A DNA stretch of 64,000 nucleotides, taken from assembly GCF_014281055.1 (NCBI RefSeq), contig NZ_JACRSE010000001.1:868001-932000 (forward strand). The letters are read 5' to 3'. The notes under the pieces were generated by a model. The model was not told where the DNA came from and did not search any database. It saw nothing but the letters and a program-made list of their open reading frames with translations. Shown one piece after another: positions 1 through 22,186 of the stretch. Position 1 is the stretch's first letter. The number at the start of each line of letters is the position of its first letter. The stretch is from Fluviispira vulneris. GTDB lineage: Bacteria; Bdellovibrionota_B; Oligoflexia; Silvanigrellales; Silvanigrellaceae. Position numbers and translations under genes: made by a program.

Positions 1-962
1 GTTAAAGTAGAGTCAAATGGAAGAAGCGTCGATGTAGTCGTACAACCGAGAGCAGAGGATGTTCCTCCACCTAACATTGAAATATTATAAGGTGTGTAAG
101 TACAAGTGCTCGTTGTGTTTTGCGCTGCATTATTGATAGAAACAGGATTGAGATAAAAAGTCCAACCACCAGGGTTTGCTTTACAACCTGTGGCAACACC
201 ATTCGCATCGCGGTCAAGCCAATAAAGCAAAACATAGCCAGAAAAAGTGTTGTCAGTTGTTTTTGTAAGATTCGTGCTCGTAGAATCGGCAGCTGCAAGG
301 TTTGTTGGAGCTGCTAAATTCACCACTATGGCGCTGTCAGCCGAAGTAACTGACATAGTTGGGGGATAAAGCATGGCACCTTTGTCCGCTTGCCATGAAA
401 ATTTTAAAGAATTATTCACTGAAGAACTATATATTGGAATAATTCCCAATGCATTGTTTGAAGTGTCAATTAGATTTTGCACTTTAGCTGGTAATTTATT
501 ATTTATGCTTGCATCGGTGAAATATAAAGTAACAATTATTGTTCCAACATAAACATTATTAACAGTCCTCATTCCTGTATCATTGACTTCCACGGTCACA
601 TTATCGTTACTTTTATTTGATAAATAATAATCTTGTGGACTGCCATTATTAGTATCAACAAAACGCACTCCCCAGTTTTGATTGGAATAATCAATAGGAA
701 TTGTCGCATCTGCTGGGTTATAAAGTTTAATGCTATAAGTTAGGACTAATTTAGAAATATTATCTTTTGCCTGCACAGGAGGCATAAAGGAAGCTGTATA
801 ACTATTTGCGGCATAAACTTTCACTGAACTTGCAGAACATGTTACGTTTGTCGTTAACGTTGAATCACAAACATCGAGAGCTAAATTTGAAGTTTGAGCA
901 TAACTTAATTGAGCATTAAAATTTAAATATAAATAAAAAAAAACAAGAATTACATTTTTCAC
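1..962 (-). CDS. secreted Ser/Thr/Asn-rich protein, 3' end cut by the window edge
   Basis: An open frame of 320 codons runs from a GTG at 962 off the left edge, so the C-terminus is missing. GTG is chosen because AAAGAG lies 8 nt upstream and the only nearby ATG reads straight into a stop. Residues 1-22 form a signal peptide (short positive start, hydrophobic core, cleavage near SYA-Q). The rest has alternating hydrophobic/polar beta-type sequence rich in Asn, Thr and Ser with scattered Cys, typical of exported adhesin-like or carbohydrate-binding beta-sandwich proteins. I do not recognise a named family. It starts 21 nt after asd and may be the last gene of that operon. Export is well supported; function is unknown. 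Confidence 0.7.
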   Translation of the reverse strand, partial: MKNVILVFFYLYLNFNAQLSYAQTSNLALDVCDSTLTTNVTCSASSVKVYAANSYTASFMPPVQAKDNISKLVLTYSIKLYNPADATIPIDYSNQNWGVRFVDTNNGSPQDYYLSNKSNDNVTVEVNDTGMRTVNNVYVGTIIVTLYFTDASINNKLPAKVQNLIDTSNNALGIIPIYSSSVNNSLKFSWQADKGAMLYPPTMSVTSADSAIVVNLAAPTNLAAADSTSTNLTKTTDNTFSGYVLLYWLDRDANGVATGCKANPGGWTFYLNPVSINNAAQNTTSTCTYTPYNISMLGGGTSSALGCTTTSTLLPFDSTL

Positions 963-17473: not shown

Positions 17474-19555
17474 ATGAAGAAATTAATTGGATATTCTAAT
17501 TCTAATCATATTCTCATTAAAAATAAGAATTTATTTCATAAAAAATCATTGGAAAAAAATATATTTAATTTAAAAAATATTTTGCATATAAATGATCTCG
17601 CAAAAGATCTTACTGATAATTGGCTCGAAGTGCTGCGCAGTAAAAGTTTAATTCAAGATATAATTGCTGCAATAACTGTCGCTTCAGTTGCACTCCCCCT
17701 CAATATTGCACTTGCTGTTGCCTGCGGACTGCCAGCAAGTACTGGGATCATAGCCGGCGCCGTAGGCGGAGGGATAGCGGCTTTATTTGGTGGATCTGCT
17801 TTGCAAGTAACAGGACCTGCTGCAGCCCTAAGCTTTATGATTTTATCCATTACCAAGGAATTTGGTGCAGTGGGTGTTGCTGGAGCTTGCATTATTATTG
17901 CAATTATTCAGTTCTTACTGAGTTTATTAAAAGCAGGAAGATTTATCAAATTTATGCCTGAAGCCGTTCTCGTCGGATTTACGACTGGAGTTGGCTTGAG
18001 ACTGCTTGACAACCAATTTCCTGAATTACTTGGATTTAATAGTAGTGTTTTTGCAATTTCAAAAATTTTTAACAGAAGTGATTGGCTACATGAAGTTTCA
18101 TGGCACGCTGTTGTCTGTGGCCTTGTTGTTGCATTGCTTGTCACGTCTTGCAAACAGTTTAAACGCTTCCCTGCTGCCTTTGTTGGAATTGTTATCGTCA
18201 CAGAAGTGTCCACAAGATTAGACTGGAGCATTCAAAGAGTTGGTTCAATTCCTTCTTTTTTACCTTTACCGAGTTTGCCATTGCTCAGTTTAGACAGATG
18301 GATTCAACTTCTTGCTCTTGCAATTCCCTTAGCTTTCCTTGCTTCAATTGAGTCATTGCTTTCCGCTCAAGCTATTGACCGAATTTCACATAGTAAAAAG
18401 AGTCACAATTCAAACCTCGAGCTCTTTGGCCAAGGCTTTGCCAACTTAGGTTCAGGATTATTCGGCGGTATGCCCGTTTCGGGAGTCATTGTTCGATCGA
18501 GTGTCAATGTCCAATGCGGAGCGAAAACGAGACTGTCTTCTCTTCTTCATGCAGTTCTTCTGTTGGTATGCATATTCTATTTGGCAGATACGATGGCGTC
18601 CATTCCTTTAGCAGCACTCGCTGGTTTGCTGTGTGTGATCGGTCTGAGACTTGTTGAATTTAAAACTTTTTTTCATTTACTCAAAGCTCAAAAATTTGCA
18701 GCTCTCTCTTTTGCCCTGACCATGATTGGCACTGTTTCAGGACATCTTTTATGGGGGCTTTTAAGTGGTATTCTTGTATTTTCTTTTGGCTATTGGCTTA
18801 AAAAGCCCGAGAAAAAAACTGAGATTTCTCCACTCAAATCGAAAAATATTCGTGGCCATTTACCAAGTCGAATAAAGGTTGAGTATAAAAAACCAACACA
18901 TTATACACTGCCAATAGAAAATCAAAATTGGCTCACACAAATTCGTGAAAAAGCATATATAACGGCCTCCGCATTCGTTCATCAAAAAGCATCTTTGATC
19001 GGGCGTATTGTTTTAGGGGATCATGTTCATATTGCAGCAGAATCTTCAATCCGTGCCGATGAAGGAACACCATTTTTTATTGGTTCAAATTCTAATATTC
19101 AGGATGGAGTTGTTATCCATGCTTTGAAAGAAAAATGGGTAAGCGTTGGCGGCGAAGACTGGGCAGTGTATATTGGAGAAAATGTATCTGTTGCTCACCA
19201 GGCACTCGTCCATGGTCCATGTTTTATAGGGGATAATTCCTTTATTGGTTTTCAAGCAATTGTTCATGATTCTATCATCGGTTCGCATTGTTATATTGGT
19301 ATCGGAGCCATCGTTGTTGGAGTCGAAATTCCCGCTGGACGTTATGTCCCGCATGGAATGGTTGTCGATTCTCTCGATAAAGTTGATATACTCCCTCAAG
19401 TTACAGATGCACATATGAATTTCAATGAAGATGTCGTTGATGTGAATAAAGGGCTAGTCGCAGCTTATAAAAAACACAATGGTCATTTTGATACCAATAA
19501 AAAGAATTTAGAAAATACAAGTATGAAATGGAAAAAGACGCCCTATAAATTTTAA
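17474..19555 (+). CDS. SulP-family anion transporter fused to a gamma-carbonic-anhydrase-like domain
   Basis: 693 residues. Residues about 40-445 form the SulP membrane domain: PLNIALAVACGLPASTGIIAGAVGG, the FGGSALQVTGPAAA signature, and many TM segments. Instead of a STAS domain, residues about 460-650 carry left-handed beta-helix hexapeptides like Cam/CcmM: IRADEGTPFFIGSNSNIQDGVVIH, VSVAHQALVHG, and PAGRYVPHGMVV. The three His positions for zinc (549, 575, 580) are present, the last two with the 5-residue spacing known in Cam. Inferred role: bicarbonate uptake coupled to CO2/bicarbonate interconversion. SulP-carbonic anhydrase fusions are known. TTTGGAG precedes the ATG. First of three plus-strand genes with two SPFH partners. 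Confidence 0.88.
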   Translation: MKKLIGYSNSNHILIKNKNLFHKKSLEKNIFNLKNILHINDLAKDLTDNWLEVLRSKSLIQDIIAAITVASVALPLNIALAVACGLPASTGIIAGAVGGGIAALFGGSALQVTGPAAALSFMILSITKEFGAVGVAGACIIIAIIQFLLSLLKAGRFIKFMPEAVLVGFTTGVGLRLLDNQFPELLGFNSSVFAISKIFNRSDWLHEVSWHAVVCGLVVALLVTSCKQFKRFPAAFVGIVIVTEVSTRLDWSIQRVGSIPSFLPLPSLPLLSLDRWIQLLALAIPLAFLASIESLLSAQAIDRISHSKKSHNSNLELFGQGFANLGSGLFGGMPVSGVIVRSSVNVQCGAKTRLSSLLHAVLLLVCIFYLADTMASIPLAALAGLLCVIGLRLVEFKTFFHLLKAQKFAALSFALTMIGTVSGHLLWGLLSGILVFSFGYWLKKPEKKTEISPLKSKNIRGHLPSRIKVEYKKPTHYTLPIENQNWLTQIREKAYITASAFVHQKASLIGRIVLGDHVHIAAESSIRADEGTPFFIGSNSNIQDGVVIHALKEKWVSVGGEDWAVYIGENVSVAHQALVHGPCFIGDNSFIGFQAIVHDSIIGSHCYIGIGAIVVGVEIPAGRYVPHGMVVDSLDKVDILPQVTDAHMNFNEDVVDVNKGLVAAYKKHNGHFDTNKKNLENTSMKWKKTPYKF

Positions 19556-19574
19556 TTGAAAAGGGAGATTAAAA

Positions 19575-20441
19575 ATGACTGAGCATATGCTCATTGGTTT
19601 TTTAACTGGCTTTGCCTTTTATCTTTTATACATTACTAAAAAATGCAGATTTCAAGTCAATGAAGGTTCAGTCGCCATTCTAACAAGTTTTGGCAGAGCC
19701 TTATTGATAAATAAAGAAACAAAACAATTAAAAACTTTTTTACCAGGATTGCATTTTAAATGGCCATGGCAAAGGGAACATAAAATATCGATCATGGAAC
19801 AAATGATTGATTTGTCAAATAATGAAGGCGCACCAATGGCAATGGTAGCAGATGGGACATTGTTAAGACTCGATGCAAAATTAAGATACAGTCCACTTAA
19901 AACAAATCTCTATGAATATTTATTTACTATGGAAAATGCTACTGAGCATATCAAAAGTTTATTTACTTGCTTGCTACATAATGAAATAGCAAGTTTTGAA
20001 AATAAAAATAGCACTTTTAAAAAATCTCAAGAGGGATCTTATGCAGCTCTCAGAAGAGATCGTCAACAATTGAATCAACATATTCAAGAATTTTTTACCT
20101 TAAAGATGGGTGAAAATTACGGAATTCATTTTGATGGTGTCGACTTAACGGATATACTTCCACCAGATGAACTGGCAAACGCACTCAATGGCGTGATCAA
20201 TGCACAAAGCGAAGCTCAGCGATCTTATGCACAGACAGAAGGAGAGTGTGAACAGCGTTTAATTGCGGCGAAAAAAGGGATAGCTATTGCGCGGGCAAAA
20301 GCAAAAGCAGTAGAAGAAGAAATCACGACTCTCGCTCAAATATTAGAAGAATTGCAAAATAATGGAACGTTACAACAATATCTAGAACGTAGAAAAGTAG
20401 AAGTTTTTTCAGAATCTAAGCTCTCTTATATTAAGAGGTAA
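19575..20441 (+). CDS. SPFH/band-7 membrane-anchored protein (first of a pair)
   Basis: 288 residues with one N-terminal TM segment (about 5-22). A stomatin/prohibitin-type domain follows: CRFQVNEGSVAILTSFGRAL, then LPGLHFKWPW, and LDAKLRYSPL. It ends in an Ala/Glu/Lys-rich coiled coil (about 205-275) with IAAKKGIAIARAKAKAVEEEI. SPFH proteins form ring-shaped scaffolds around membrane proteases or transporters. It lies 19 nt after the SulP fusion gene and 2 nt before a second SPFH gene, a layout like HflK/HflC but without the FtsH-linked context. Role at the SulP transporter is inference. Confidence 0.85.
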   Translation: MTEHMLIGFLTGFAFYLLYITKKCRFQVNEGSVAILTSFGRALLINKETKQLKTFLPGLHFKWPWQREHKISIMEQMIDLSNNEGAPMAMVADGTLLRLDAKLRYSPLKTNLYEYLFTMENATEHIKSLFTCLLHNEIASFENKNSTFKKSQEGSYAALRRDRQQLNQHIQEFFTLKMGENYGIHFDGVDLTDILPPDELANALNGVINAQSEAQRSYAQTEGECEQRLIAAKKGIAIARAKAKAVEEEITTLAQILEELQNNGTLQQYLERRKVEVFSESKLSYIKR

Positions 20442-20443
20442 TT

Positions 20444-21418
20444 ATGAAACACGAAATTTTACAAATTATTCTTGGAATCGTTCTCGGAACTATCGCTATA
20501 CCCCTCATTTTTTTATTTTGCAAAGCTTTTATCATTCAGGTTGATAATGAAACAAATATATTAATGTGTCGCTTCGGTAAGCTTATAAAAATTTATACCA
20601 AACCCGGTTTACATTTTTGTTTGGAAAAAATACTGCCAACCTGTCAAACCATTTCTGTTTCTTTAAAAAAAGATTTTCGAACTTTTGAAGAAATCCACAT
20701 AAATGATCTTTCTGGCACAACAATTATAATAGATCTGTGGGTTGAATTTAATATCACCAGTCCAGTAAAAGCTGCATTTCAAGTTGAAAATTTAGAAAAA
20801 TCATTACAAAGTACTTTAACCAGTGCTGCAACGTCTATTTTAGGAACTCTAGAATTCAAGCAGATATTAAGTAACAGAAATGCATTGAATCAAAAAATAA
20901 AAGATGAGATCAAAAATGAAACTTTGCGTTGGGGCATCACTGTTGATAAGATTTTTATTAGTAAACTTAGCCTCTTACCAGAAGTTTCCCAACAACTTTT
21001 TGATACAGTTGCTGCTCGTTTGGAAAAAGCAAAAGCAGATATCGAAGAAGTTGGCCGACTCGATGCACAATTACTCGAAGCGGAAACTGCGTCGAAGGTG
21101 GCAGCATTGGTGGCTGAAGCAAAAGGACAATACAGTTTGTCCATTGGTAAAGCTTATCAAAAACTCGCACAAAATCCTGAACTTTTTGAGGCATATACAA
21201 GACTATACGAATATTCACTTATAAAACCACATAGAACAATTGCATTTCAGGGATTTGCAAATGAAGAAATGATTGCTATGCAAGGATCATTACCACAAAT
21301 TTTATCTTATGACGAAACACATTCAATCCCCCCTCATACCCAAAATCATTTCATGCAGAATATTTCGCAAAAAAACTCATTCTCACATAAAAAAAATGAA
21401 ATTTCCCCAGAAAGTTAA
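20444..21418 (+). CDS. SPFH/band-7 membrane-anchored protein (second of a pair)
   Basis: 324 residues: N-terminal TM (about 8-28), SPFH domain (about 30-200) with VDNETNILMCRFGKLIKIYTKPGLHF and a TITVD-like WGITVDKIFI strand, then a coiled coil AKADIEEVGRLDAQLLEAETASKVAALVAEAKG (about 195-230). A tail of about 60 residues is rich in Gln, His and Ser. AAGAGG precedes the start, only 2 nt after the previous stop, so the two are surely co-translated. With its neighbour it may build a hetero-oligomeric ring. No obvious terminator follows. Confidence 0.84.
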   Translation: MKHEILQIILGIVLGTIAIPLIFLFCKAFIIQVDNETNILMCRFGKLIKIYTKPGLHFCLEKILPTCQTISVSLKKDFRTFEEIHINDLSGTTIIIDLWVEFNITSPVKAAFQVENLEKSLQSTLTSAATSILGTLEFKQILSNRNALNQKIKDEIKNETLRWGITVDKIFISKLSLLPEVSQQLFDTVAARLEKAKADIEEVGRLDAQLLEAETASKVAALVAEAKGQYSLSIGKAYQKLAQNPELFEAYTRLYEYSLIKPHRTIAFQGFANEEMIAMQGSLPQILSYDETHSIPPHTQNHFMQNISQKNSFSHKKNEISPES

Positions 21419-21616: not shown

Positions 21617-22186
21617 ATGAAAAAATCTTTAGTTTCTTCACTATTATTCTGCTCTGTTTCCTTAATTCAATTTTCTGCTCACGCTAGCAATATTGGTTCT
21701 TATTTATTCTGTGTCAATAAAGAAAATTCAAGCGACTGGAAATGGGCGCCCATTACTCCAAAAGGTGTACATGAATTCGAAAAACGCGGAGCCTCGGGTA
21801 GCAAAAGAGGCACTTGGGTAGATGGCACTCCTTCCTTAAATTCCTATTTGCATCCTGTCCTTGAGGTTTCAACCATTTATAAAGATGTTGATGAAGCTAA
21901 ACAATTTTGTACCTCTCTCCAAAAAATATGTACAAAAAGTTATGGTGAAGATTATTCGCACATAGGCACTTCTGGTGGAATTATTCCAGCATTCTTTTGG
22001 AATTATATTGGAGTAAACTATTATGGGGAAAATAAAGATAAAATAAAAAGCTCAGCATGTGAAAATTGGACTTATACCGAATTCCCAAACAAAGGTGGAG
22101 TCGATGCTAAACTGATAAAAGCGATTAAAGATACAGTTAAAGAGGGAGATATTACCCCTATTAAAGATTTAGTTTTGGAAAAGTAA
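21617..22186 (+). CDS. secreted protein, unknown function
   Basis: 189 residues with a 23-residue signal peptide ending AHA-S. The mature protein has five Cys (FCVN, QFCTSLQKICTK, SACENW) and several Trp, consistent with a compact disulfide-bonded exported domain. AGGA lies 7 nt before the ATG. A perfect palindrome upstream hints at its own control. I do not recognise the family. Both neighbours are separated by AT-rich gaps of about 200 nt, so it is probably transcribed alone. Confidence 0.7.
   Translation: MKKSLVSSLLFCSVSLIQFSAHASNIGSYLFCVNKENSSDWKWAPITPKGVHEFEKRGASGSKRGTWVDGTPSLNSYLHPVLEVSTIYKDVDEAKQFCTSLQKICTKSYGEDYSHIGTSGGIIPAFFWNYIGVNYYGENKDKIKSSACENWTYTEFPNKGGVDAKLIKAIKDTVKEGDITPIKDLVLEK

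Follow-up and report, generated by a model that had tools for sequence, protein, structure and literature searches.

A fusion of a SulP-family anion transporter with a γ-class carbonic anhydrase (γ-CA), followed at once by genes for two different SPFH-family membrane proteins (SPFH1 and SPFH2), was identified in a 64,000-nucleotide (nt) stretch of the Fluviispira vulneris genome (assembly GCF_014281055.1, contig NZ_JACRSE010000001.1, positions 868,001 to 932,000; hereafter the window). Each part comes from a known family; what is new is how they are combined and how strictly they are linked across genomes. We propose, at a probability of roughly 60%, that the three genes form a transferable module encoding a bicarbonate transport metabolon at the membrane, enclosed by a heteromeric SPFH ring of its own. 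The features of the module, in window coordinates or residues of the fusion, are as follows.

17474-19555, forward strand: SulP-γ-CA fusion open reading frame, 693 amino acids (aa)
Residues about 45-440, forward strand: SulP (SLC26-type) membrane domain of the fusion
18350-18352, forward strand: Glu293 codon of the fusion, aligned with the BicA Na+-site Asp, SULTR4;1 Glu347, and the SLC26Dg Glu
Residues about 441-492, forward strand: flexible linker of the fusion (AlphaFold low confidence at 444-492)
18947-19492, forward strand: CcmM/Cam-type γ-CA domain of the fusion, residues 492-673, with zinc ligands H549, H575, and H580
19265-19267, forward strand: His598 codon of the CA domain
19575-20441, forward strand: SPFH1, 288 aa, with an N-terminal transmembrane (TM) helix, an SPFH/Band_7 domain, a coiled coil at 198-262, and a helix at 266-287
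20444-21418, forward strand: SPFH2, 324 aa, with an N-terminal TM helix, an SPFH/Band_7 domain, and a variable C-terminal tail

A previous reading of this stretch from the sequence only (the sequence-only reading) had described the fusion as followed within a few bases by two different SPFH genes, and the exact coordinates bear this out. All three genes lie on the same strand, with gaps of 19 nt between the fusion and SPFH1 and 2 nt between SPFH1 and SPFH2. Promoter and terminator scans of the window gave signal no higher than in shuffled sequence, and the operon structure is therefore based on spacing and conservation.

The conserved linkage between the fusion and the SPFH pair is strongly supported by a survey of 622 genomes in three phyla, comprising 58 genomes of the host's own phylum plus two whole-phylum sets, of 195 and 369 genomes, that cover the Myxococcota and Bdellovibrionota. 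Full-length fusions were found in 36 genomes (12/58, 17/195, and 7/369), and SPFH1 is the next gene after every one of them. One more genome among the 58 (G035) carries a broken fusion, and all 13 loci of this set, the 12 full-length fusions and the remnant, continue with SPFH1 and then SPFH2. A scan of GTDB contigs recovered at least 25 fusions in the Bdellovibrionota and Myxococcota, and both SPFH genes stand behind all 25. With duplicates removed, at least 47 fusion loci are known overall, a lower bound, as the whole-phylum searches gave fusions beyond those of the GTDB-wide scan. SPFH1 is adjacent in 47/47 loci, and SPFH2 comes next in 44/44 of the loci that were checked for it on contigs that do not end first; the order fusion-SPFH1-SPFH2, adjacent and co-oriented, is kept in all loci checked. 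The link conjectured from a single locus is conserved in the neighborhoods of its homologs. It also holds from the SPFH side: high-scoring matches to an SPFH1 profile (at least about 157 bits) occur in 13/58, 17/195, and 7/369 genomes, which are exactly the 36 fusion genomes plus the one remnant genome. These co-occurrence counts are given without a simple probability, the surveyed genomes being related by descent. The module is distributed patchily across families, and common flanking genes are seen only in the closest relative. This pattern argues that the three genes are selected or transferred together, and they behave as one module.

Divergence among the partners was also correlated, with r = 0.93 between SPFH1 and SPFH2 and r = 0.83-0.86 among SulP, CA, and SPFH. 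The value for the SPFH pair is as expected of heteromer partners, but equally of any co-inherited pair. At two Myxococcota loci (L058 and L168), identity to the other SulP domains falls to about 25-34%, but CA, SPFH1, and SPFH2 are ordinary members of their families. In one genome (G072), the module is present twice, with the usual SulP at L055 and the replaced SulP at L168 (G072:C283). In the SulP tree, L058 and L168 fall apart from the other 43 sequences, and forcing a single clade costs 39 log-likelihood units (approximately unbiased test, p = 0.032). In the CA tree, all 45 fusions form one clade with strong support (99 in the Shimodaira-Hasegawa-like approximate likelihood ratio test). Residuals against CA distance agree, with z = 9.5 and 8.2 for SulP at the two loci and values between -1.5 and -0.2 for the SPFH proteins. 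The simplest reading of these sequences is that the transporter was exchanged and the CA-SPFH partnership kept, although the long branches in the SulP tree leave the exact origin of the replacing SulP unsure. Replacement of SulP with retention of CA and the SPFH pair indicates that the scaffold pair tracks the CA-bearing assembly and not one transporter lineage.

The transporter domain of the fusion is a clear SulP member (Pfam Sulfate_transp at residues 59-414; E-value, 1.8e-64; 218 bits against a cut-off of 23.2), and its closest solved relatives are BicA and SLC26Dg. In an AlphaFold model of the fusion built from 24 sequences, the SulP and CA domains are confident (mean predicted local distance difference test score of 77 for the whole protein), and the low-confidence segments are 1-36, 444-492, and 670-693. 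A Foldseek comparison placed the SulP model on BicA (6ki1) with a TM-score of 0.86 by target length and also matched SLC26Dg, while the score against the NCBIfam BicA equivalog is 168 bits, below the cut-off of 880. The STAS domain usual in SulP/SLC26 proteins is absent from the fusion and 23 homologs (0/24), and the γ-CA domain occupies its position, in agreement with the sequence-only reading of a transporter without STAS. Glu293 is invariant in 45/45 fusions. Mutation of its SULTR4;1 counterpart, Glu347, showed the importance of this position for proton-dependent transport (PMC8298490), which lends some support to a guess of proton coupling. Proteins of the SLC26/SulP fold are generally homodimers (PMC8298490), and the linker between the membrane domain and the CA domain measures 52-72 residues among the fusions (alignment columns 441 to 495).

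The CA domain scores 194 bits against CcmM and 180 bits against the archaeal Cam (NCBIfam), both being its closest families, and Pfam places hexapeptide repeats at about residues 583-613, C-terminal to Sulfate_transp. Alignment to Cam (3ow5) and CcmM (3kwc) equates His549, His575, and His580, which had already been read as zinc ligands in a Cam/CcmM-like β-helix, with Cam His81, His117, and His122. It also equates R527, D529, E530, N541, Q543, D544, and N658 with Cam R59, D61, E62, N73, Q75, D76, and N202. The three histidines and all seven other catalytic equivalents are invariant in the 45 distinct fusions. The modeled CA domain superimposes on the active CcmM 3kwc with a root mean square deviation of 1.0 Å over 177 columns (Foldseek, AlphaFold model) and on Cam at 1.3 Å. 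The domain retains the zinc-site ligands together with the other Cam catalytic residues; γ-CAs are trimeric with the zinc site between subunits, so that a monomer model cannot display the complete site geometry. As a clade-specific mark, His598 is invariant in 45/45 fusions, whereas Phe or Tyr is found at this position in all 37 Cam/CcmM-type sequences compared.

Both downstream proteins match the Pfam Band_7/SPFH family (60 and 76 bits), have one N-terminal TM helix each, and belong to distinct subfamilies, not being copies of each other. Their closest folds are HflC and prohibitins. A canonical HflK/HflC identity was rejected for the pair because the scores lie below the curated NCBIfam hflK/hflC equivalog cut-offs (32 and 53 bits against 159.4; 25 and 20 bits against 134.4). 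The N terminus of SPFH1 is short and mostly without positive charge ahead of the TM helix, which resembles the cytoplasm-facing QmcA of Escherichia coli and not the periplasmic HflC. This weakly favors a ring in the cytoplasm, which would put it and the CA domain on one side of the membrane. The coiled-coil helix of SPFH1 spans about 65 residues (198-262), and a published fit between SPFH coiled-coil length and copy number (y = 0.1782x + 10.22; PMC12624060) predicts from it a ring of about 22 subunits.

The domains, fold matches, conserved catalytic residues, genomic linkage, correlated divergence, and SulP replacement are direct results; the substrate, the direction of transport, CA activity, ring formation, and physical contact are what the metabolon proposal adds to them. 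On this basis the sequence-only reading of a membrane microdomain for bicarbonate capture is partly supported. Taken as a bicarbonate transport metabolon, the module would work as follows. The SulP domain would carry its substrate, an anion and most likely HCO3-, over the inner membrane, with Glu293 perhaps providing coupling to protons, and the γ-CA tethered at its cytoplasmic end would interconvert HCO3- and CO2 at the mouth of the transporter. SPFH1 and SPFH2 may together build a heteromeric ring or cage dedicated to the fusion, which would corral, regulate, or tune it. A dimeric transporter and a trimeric γ-CA, joined through a linker some 50 residues long that would leave room for both symmetries, could cluster into patches, which the ring would bound. 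The purpose may be to provide biosynthetic carboxylases with bicarbonate or to control pH. We hold only tentatively, at somewhat less than even odds, to a more specific form of this proposal: that the hard-wired SulP-γ-CA sits inside its own SPFH1/SPFH2 ring, that dimer and trimer symmetry build a clustered patch, that the whole is a so far undescribed inorganic-carbon system of non-autotrophs, and that the ring serves this single metabolon and not general membrane organization or FtsH.

Several observations weigh against the metabolon proposal. Linkage is no proof of physical contact. Arg341 in TM10 of the SulP domain, conserved in 44/45 fusions, is an SLC26-type feature, and on sequence evidence sulfate or another anion stays among the candidate substrates. 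The acidic-loop proton-shuttle residue of Cam, Glu84, is replaced by Lys552 in 44/45 fusions, in a short, CcmM-like loop, and CO2 turnover may differ as a result; His598 and Lys552 together possibly reflect an altered proton path. Membrane topology predicted from charge bias is weak, above all for SPFH2. The host genome (3.6 Mb) also encodes two β-CAs and two stand-alone small γ-CA-like proteins, and the operon was accordingly rejected as the sole carbonic anhydrase system.

The direction of transport, capture as against export or pH control, would separate our proposal from its strongest competitor, in which the same parts make a pH or CO2 homeostasis valve, with HCO3- exported or exchanged and the CA supplying or removing it. 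We consider this unlikely, though it is the best of the alternatives. The hosts are heterotrophs that produce CO2, two β-CAs are already in the genome, and SLC26 proteins are often exchangers. The sequence-only reading had seen no carbon-fixation genes in view. That stands insofar as no CO2-fixing RuBisCO is evident, but the genome does hold one RuBisCO-family gene (L191, G000:C2:271480-272169), which encodes a RuBisCO-like protein of 382 aa and lies between mtnA- and mtnB-like genes in an mtnA-mtnW-mtnB-like methionine salvage cluster. Autotrophy was rejected on this ground, and the same observation speaks for a valve. The invariant Glu293 speaks against one, as this position is acidic in the coupled importers SULTR4;1, SLC26Dg, and BicA and not acidic in most human SLC26 proteins.

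It is improbable that the γ-CA is a catalytically silent trimerization module in place of STAS on a carrier of sulfate or another anion. The absence of STAS, the conserved Arg341, and the loss of Glu84 would fit such a role, and some γ-CA homologs lack measurable activity (PMC7199487). Yet the invariance in 45/45 fusions of the zinc ligands and of the R59/D61/E62/N73/Q75/D76/N202 equivalents goes beyond structural need, and the E62, Q75, and N202 equivalents are, by our own reading of the correspondence, apparently those engineered for higher activity in another γ-CA (PMC7199487). Just as doubtful is the view that the SPFH pair has no part in transport and builds a quality-control chamber of the HflK/HflC kind, in which the protease FtsH is recruited or held back in its action on the fusion. 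The closeness of the pair to HflC/HflK and prohibitins in fold and family speaks for it. Against it stand scores far under the curated HflK/HflC cut-offs, an N-terminal charge pattern unlike that of HflC, the lack of an FtsH or NfeD gene in the unit, and a strict specificity for a single client that would be unusual for such a chamber.

Further loci delimit the module. In the remnant locus (L033, G035:C27, 8670-10751), about 175 aa of SulP are matched, the CA domain is gone, SPFH1 is shortened, and SPFH2 is intact; in no other case seen did SPFH genes outlive the fusion, and the locus may reflect decay or an assembly fault. A second, clearly separate class of SPFH1 profile matches (about 90-129 bits) occurs in many genomes. 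These matches were rejected as SPFH1 without a fusion, as those examined (L134 and L169-L175) are a different, stand-alone SPFH pair that has no SulP or CA nearby and lies apart on a very long branch. This pair (about 340 and 300 aa), distant from SPFH1/SPFH2 and below the HflK/HflC cut-offs, is widespread in the Bdellovibrionota and Myxococcota. Thiobacillus-type matches, which had looked fused after tblastn merged two pieces into one hit, were rejected as fusions: γ-CA and SulP are there encoded by separate genes, and SPFH is absent. The arrangement in Thiobacillus, Hydrogenophilales, and related bacteria is a γ-CA gene on its own directly ahead of one for SulP, in many cases with another SulP gene close by and none for SPFH (L060-L069, L074, L075, L083, L086, L090, and L111). 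Viral contigs gave 7 pattern matches, of which 0 are relatives. Just past the module, positions 21617-22186 of the window encode a predicted exported protein of 189 aa without a Pfam or NCBIfam match, a 30% identical homolog of which lies about 4.3 kb past the module in another locus (L023). An Rfam search of the window gave 0 matches.

SulP proteins fused to or encoded beside β-CAs are already known, with bicarbonate transport proposed (PMC6458275). The present fusion resembles the SulP-β-CA fusions and can-sulP pairs (Felce & Saier 2004; Acidithiobacillus clade C) in joining or placing SulP next to a CA, and those of Acidithiobacillus clade C also in that SulP is not fused to STAS. It differs from the Felce & Saier type, in which the CA is of the β class, in its γ-class, CcmM/Cam-type CA and in the dedicated SPFH pair that always follows, and its transporter belongs to another lineage than the SulP genes adjacent to γ-CA in Thiobacillus. 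Its SulP and CA folds match BicA and CcmM, respectively, but the cyanobacterial proteins are separate and without an SPFH partner; BicA includes a STAS domain, which the fusion lacks, and uses Asp at its Na+ site, where the fusion has Glu293, and CcmM has Rubisco-like repeats that the fusion lacks. The SPFH proteins share the TM helix, SPFH domain, and long coiled coil of HflK/HflC, prohibitin PHB1/2, stomatin, and QmcA, and are paired as in hflKC and PHB1/2. Unlike these complexes, they are linked to a transporter-enzyme fusion and not to NfeD or hflX. In the clusters of flotillin-associated rhodopsins (FArhodopsin), bacteria likewise keep an SPFH gene linked to a gene for a transport-type membrane protein, but the client is different, the SPFH gene is a flotillin gene and not the SPFH1/SPFH2 pair, and there is no enzyme fusion. 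We found no description of a link among SulP, γ-CA, and SPFH in the open-access literature.

A functional precedent is eukaryotic. Stomatin interacts with the bicarbonate exchanger AE1 of red blood cells and raises its activity, HCO3- permeability being 47% lower without stomatin (PMC5383999), and PDB entry 9zd2 shows human stomatin in complex with aquaporin 1. AE1 is a transporter of another family (SLC4), and it and stomatin are encoded apart. By this analogy, the module, carried by certain predatory, symbiotic, and soil bacteria, may be a bacterial "bicarbonate station" comparable to the exchanger that stomatin accompanies in red blood cells. The fusion extends SulP-CA coupling to γ-CA, to heterotrophic predators, and to myxobacteria. 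Because the SPFH pair occurs only with one assayable client, which would combine anion transport with CO2 hydration, the question of what such scaffolds do becomes directly testable, and the module would provide a one-operon bacterial counterpart to the eukaryotic association of a bicarbonate transporter with stomatin.

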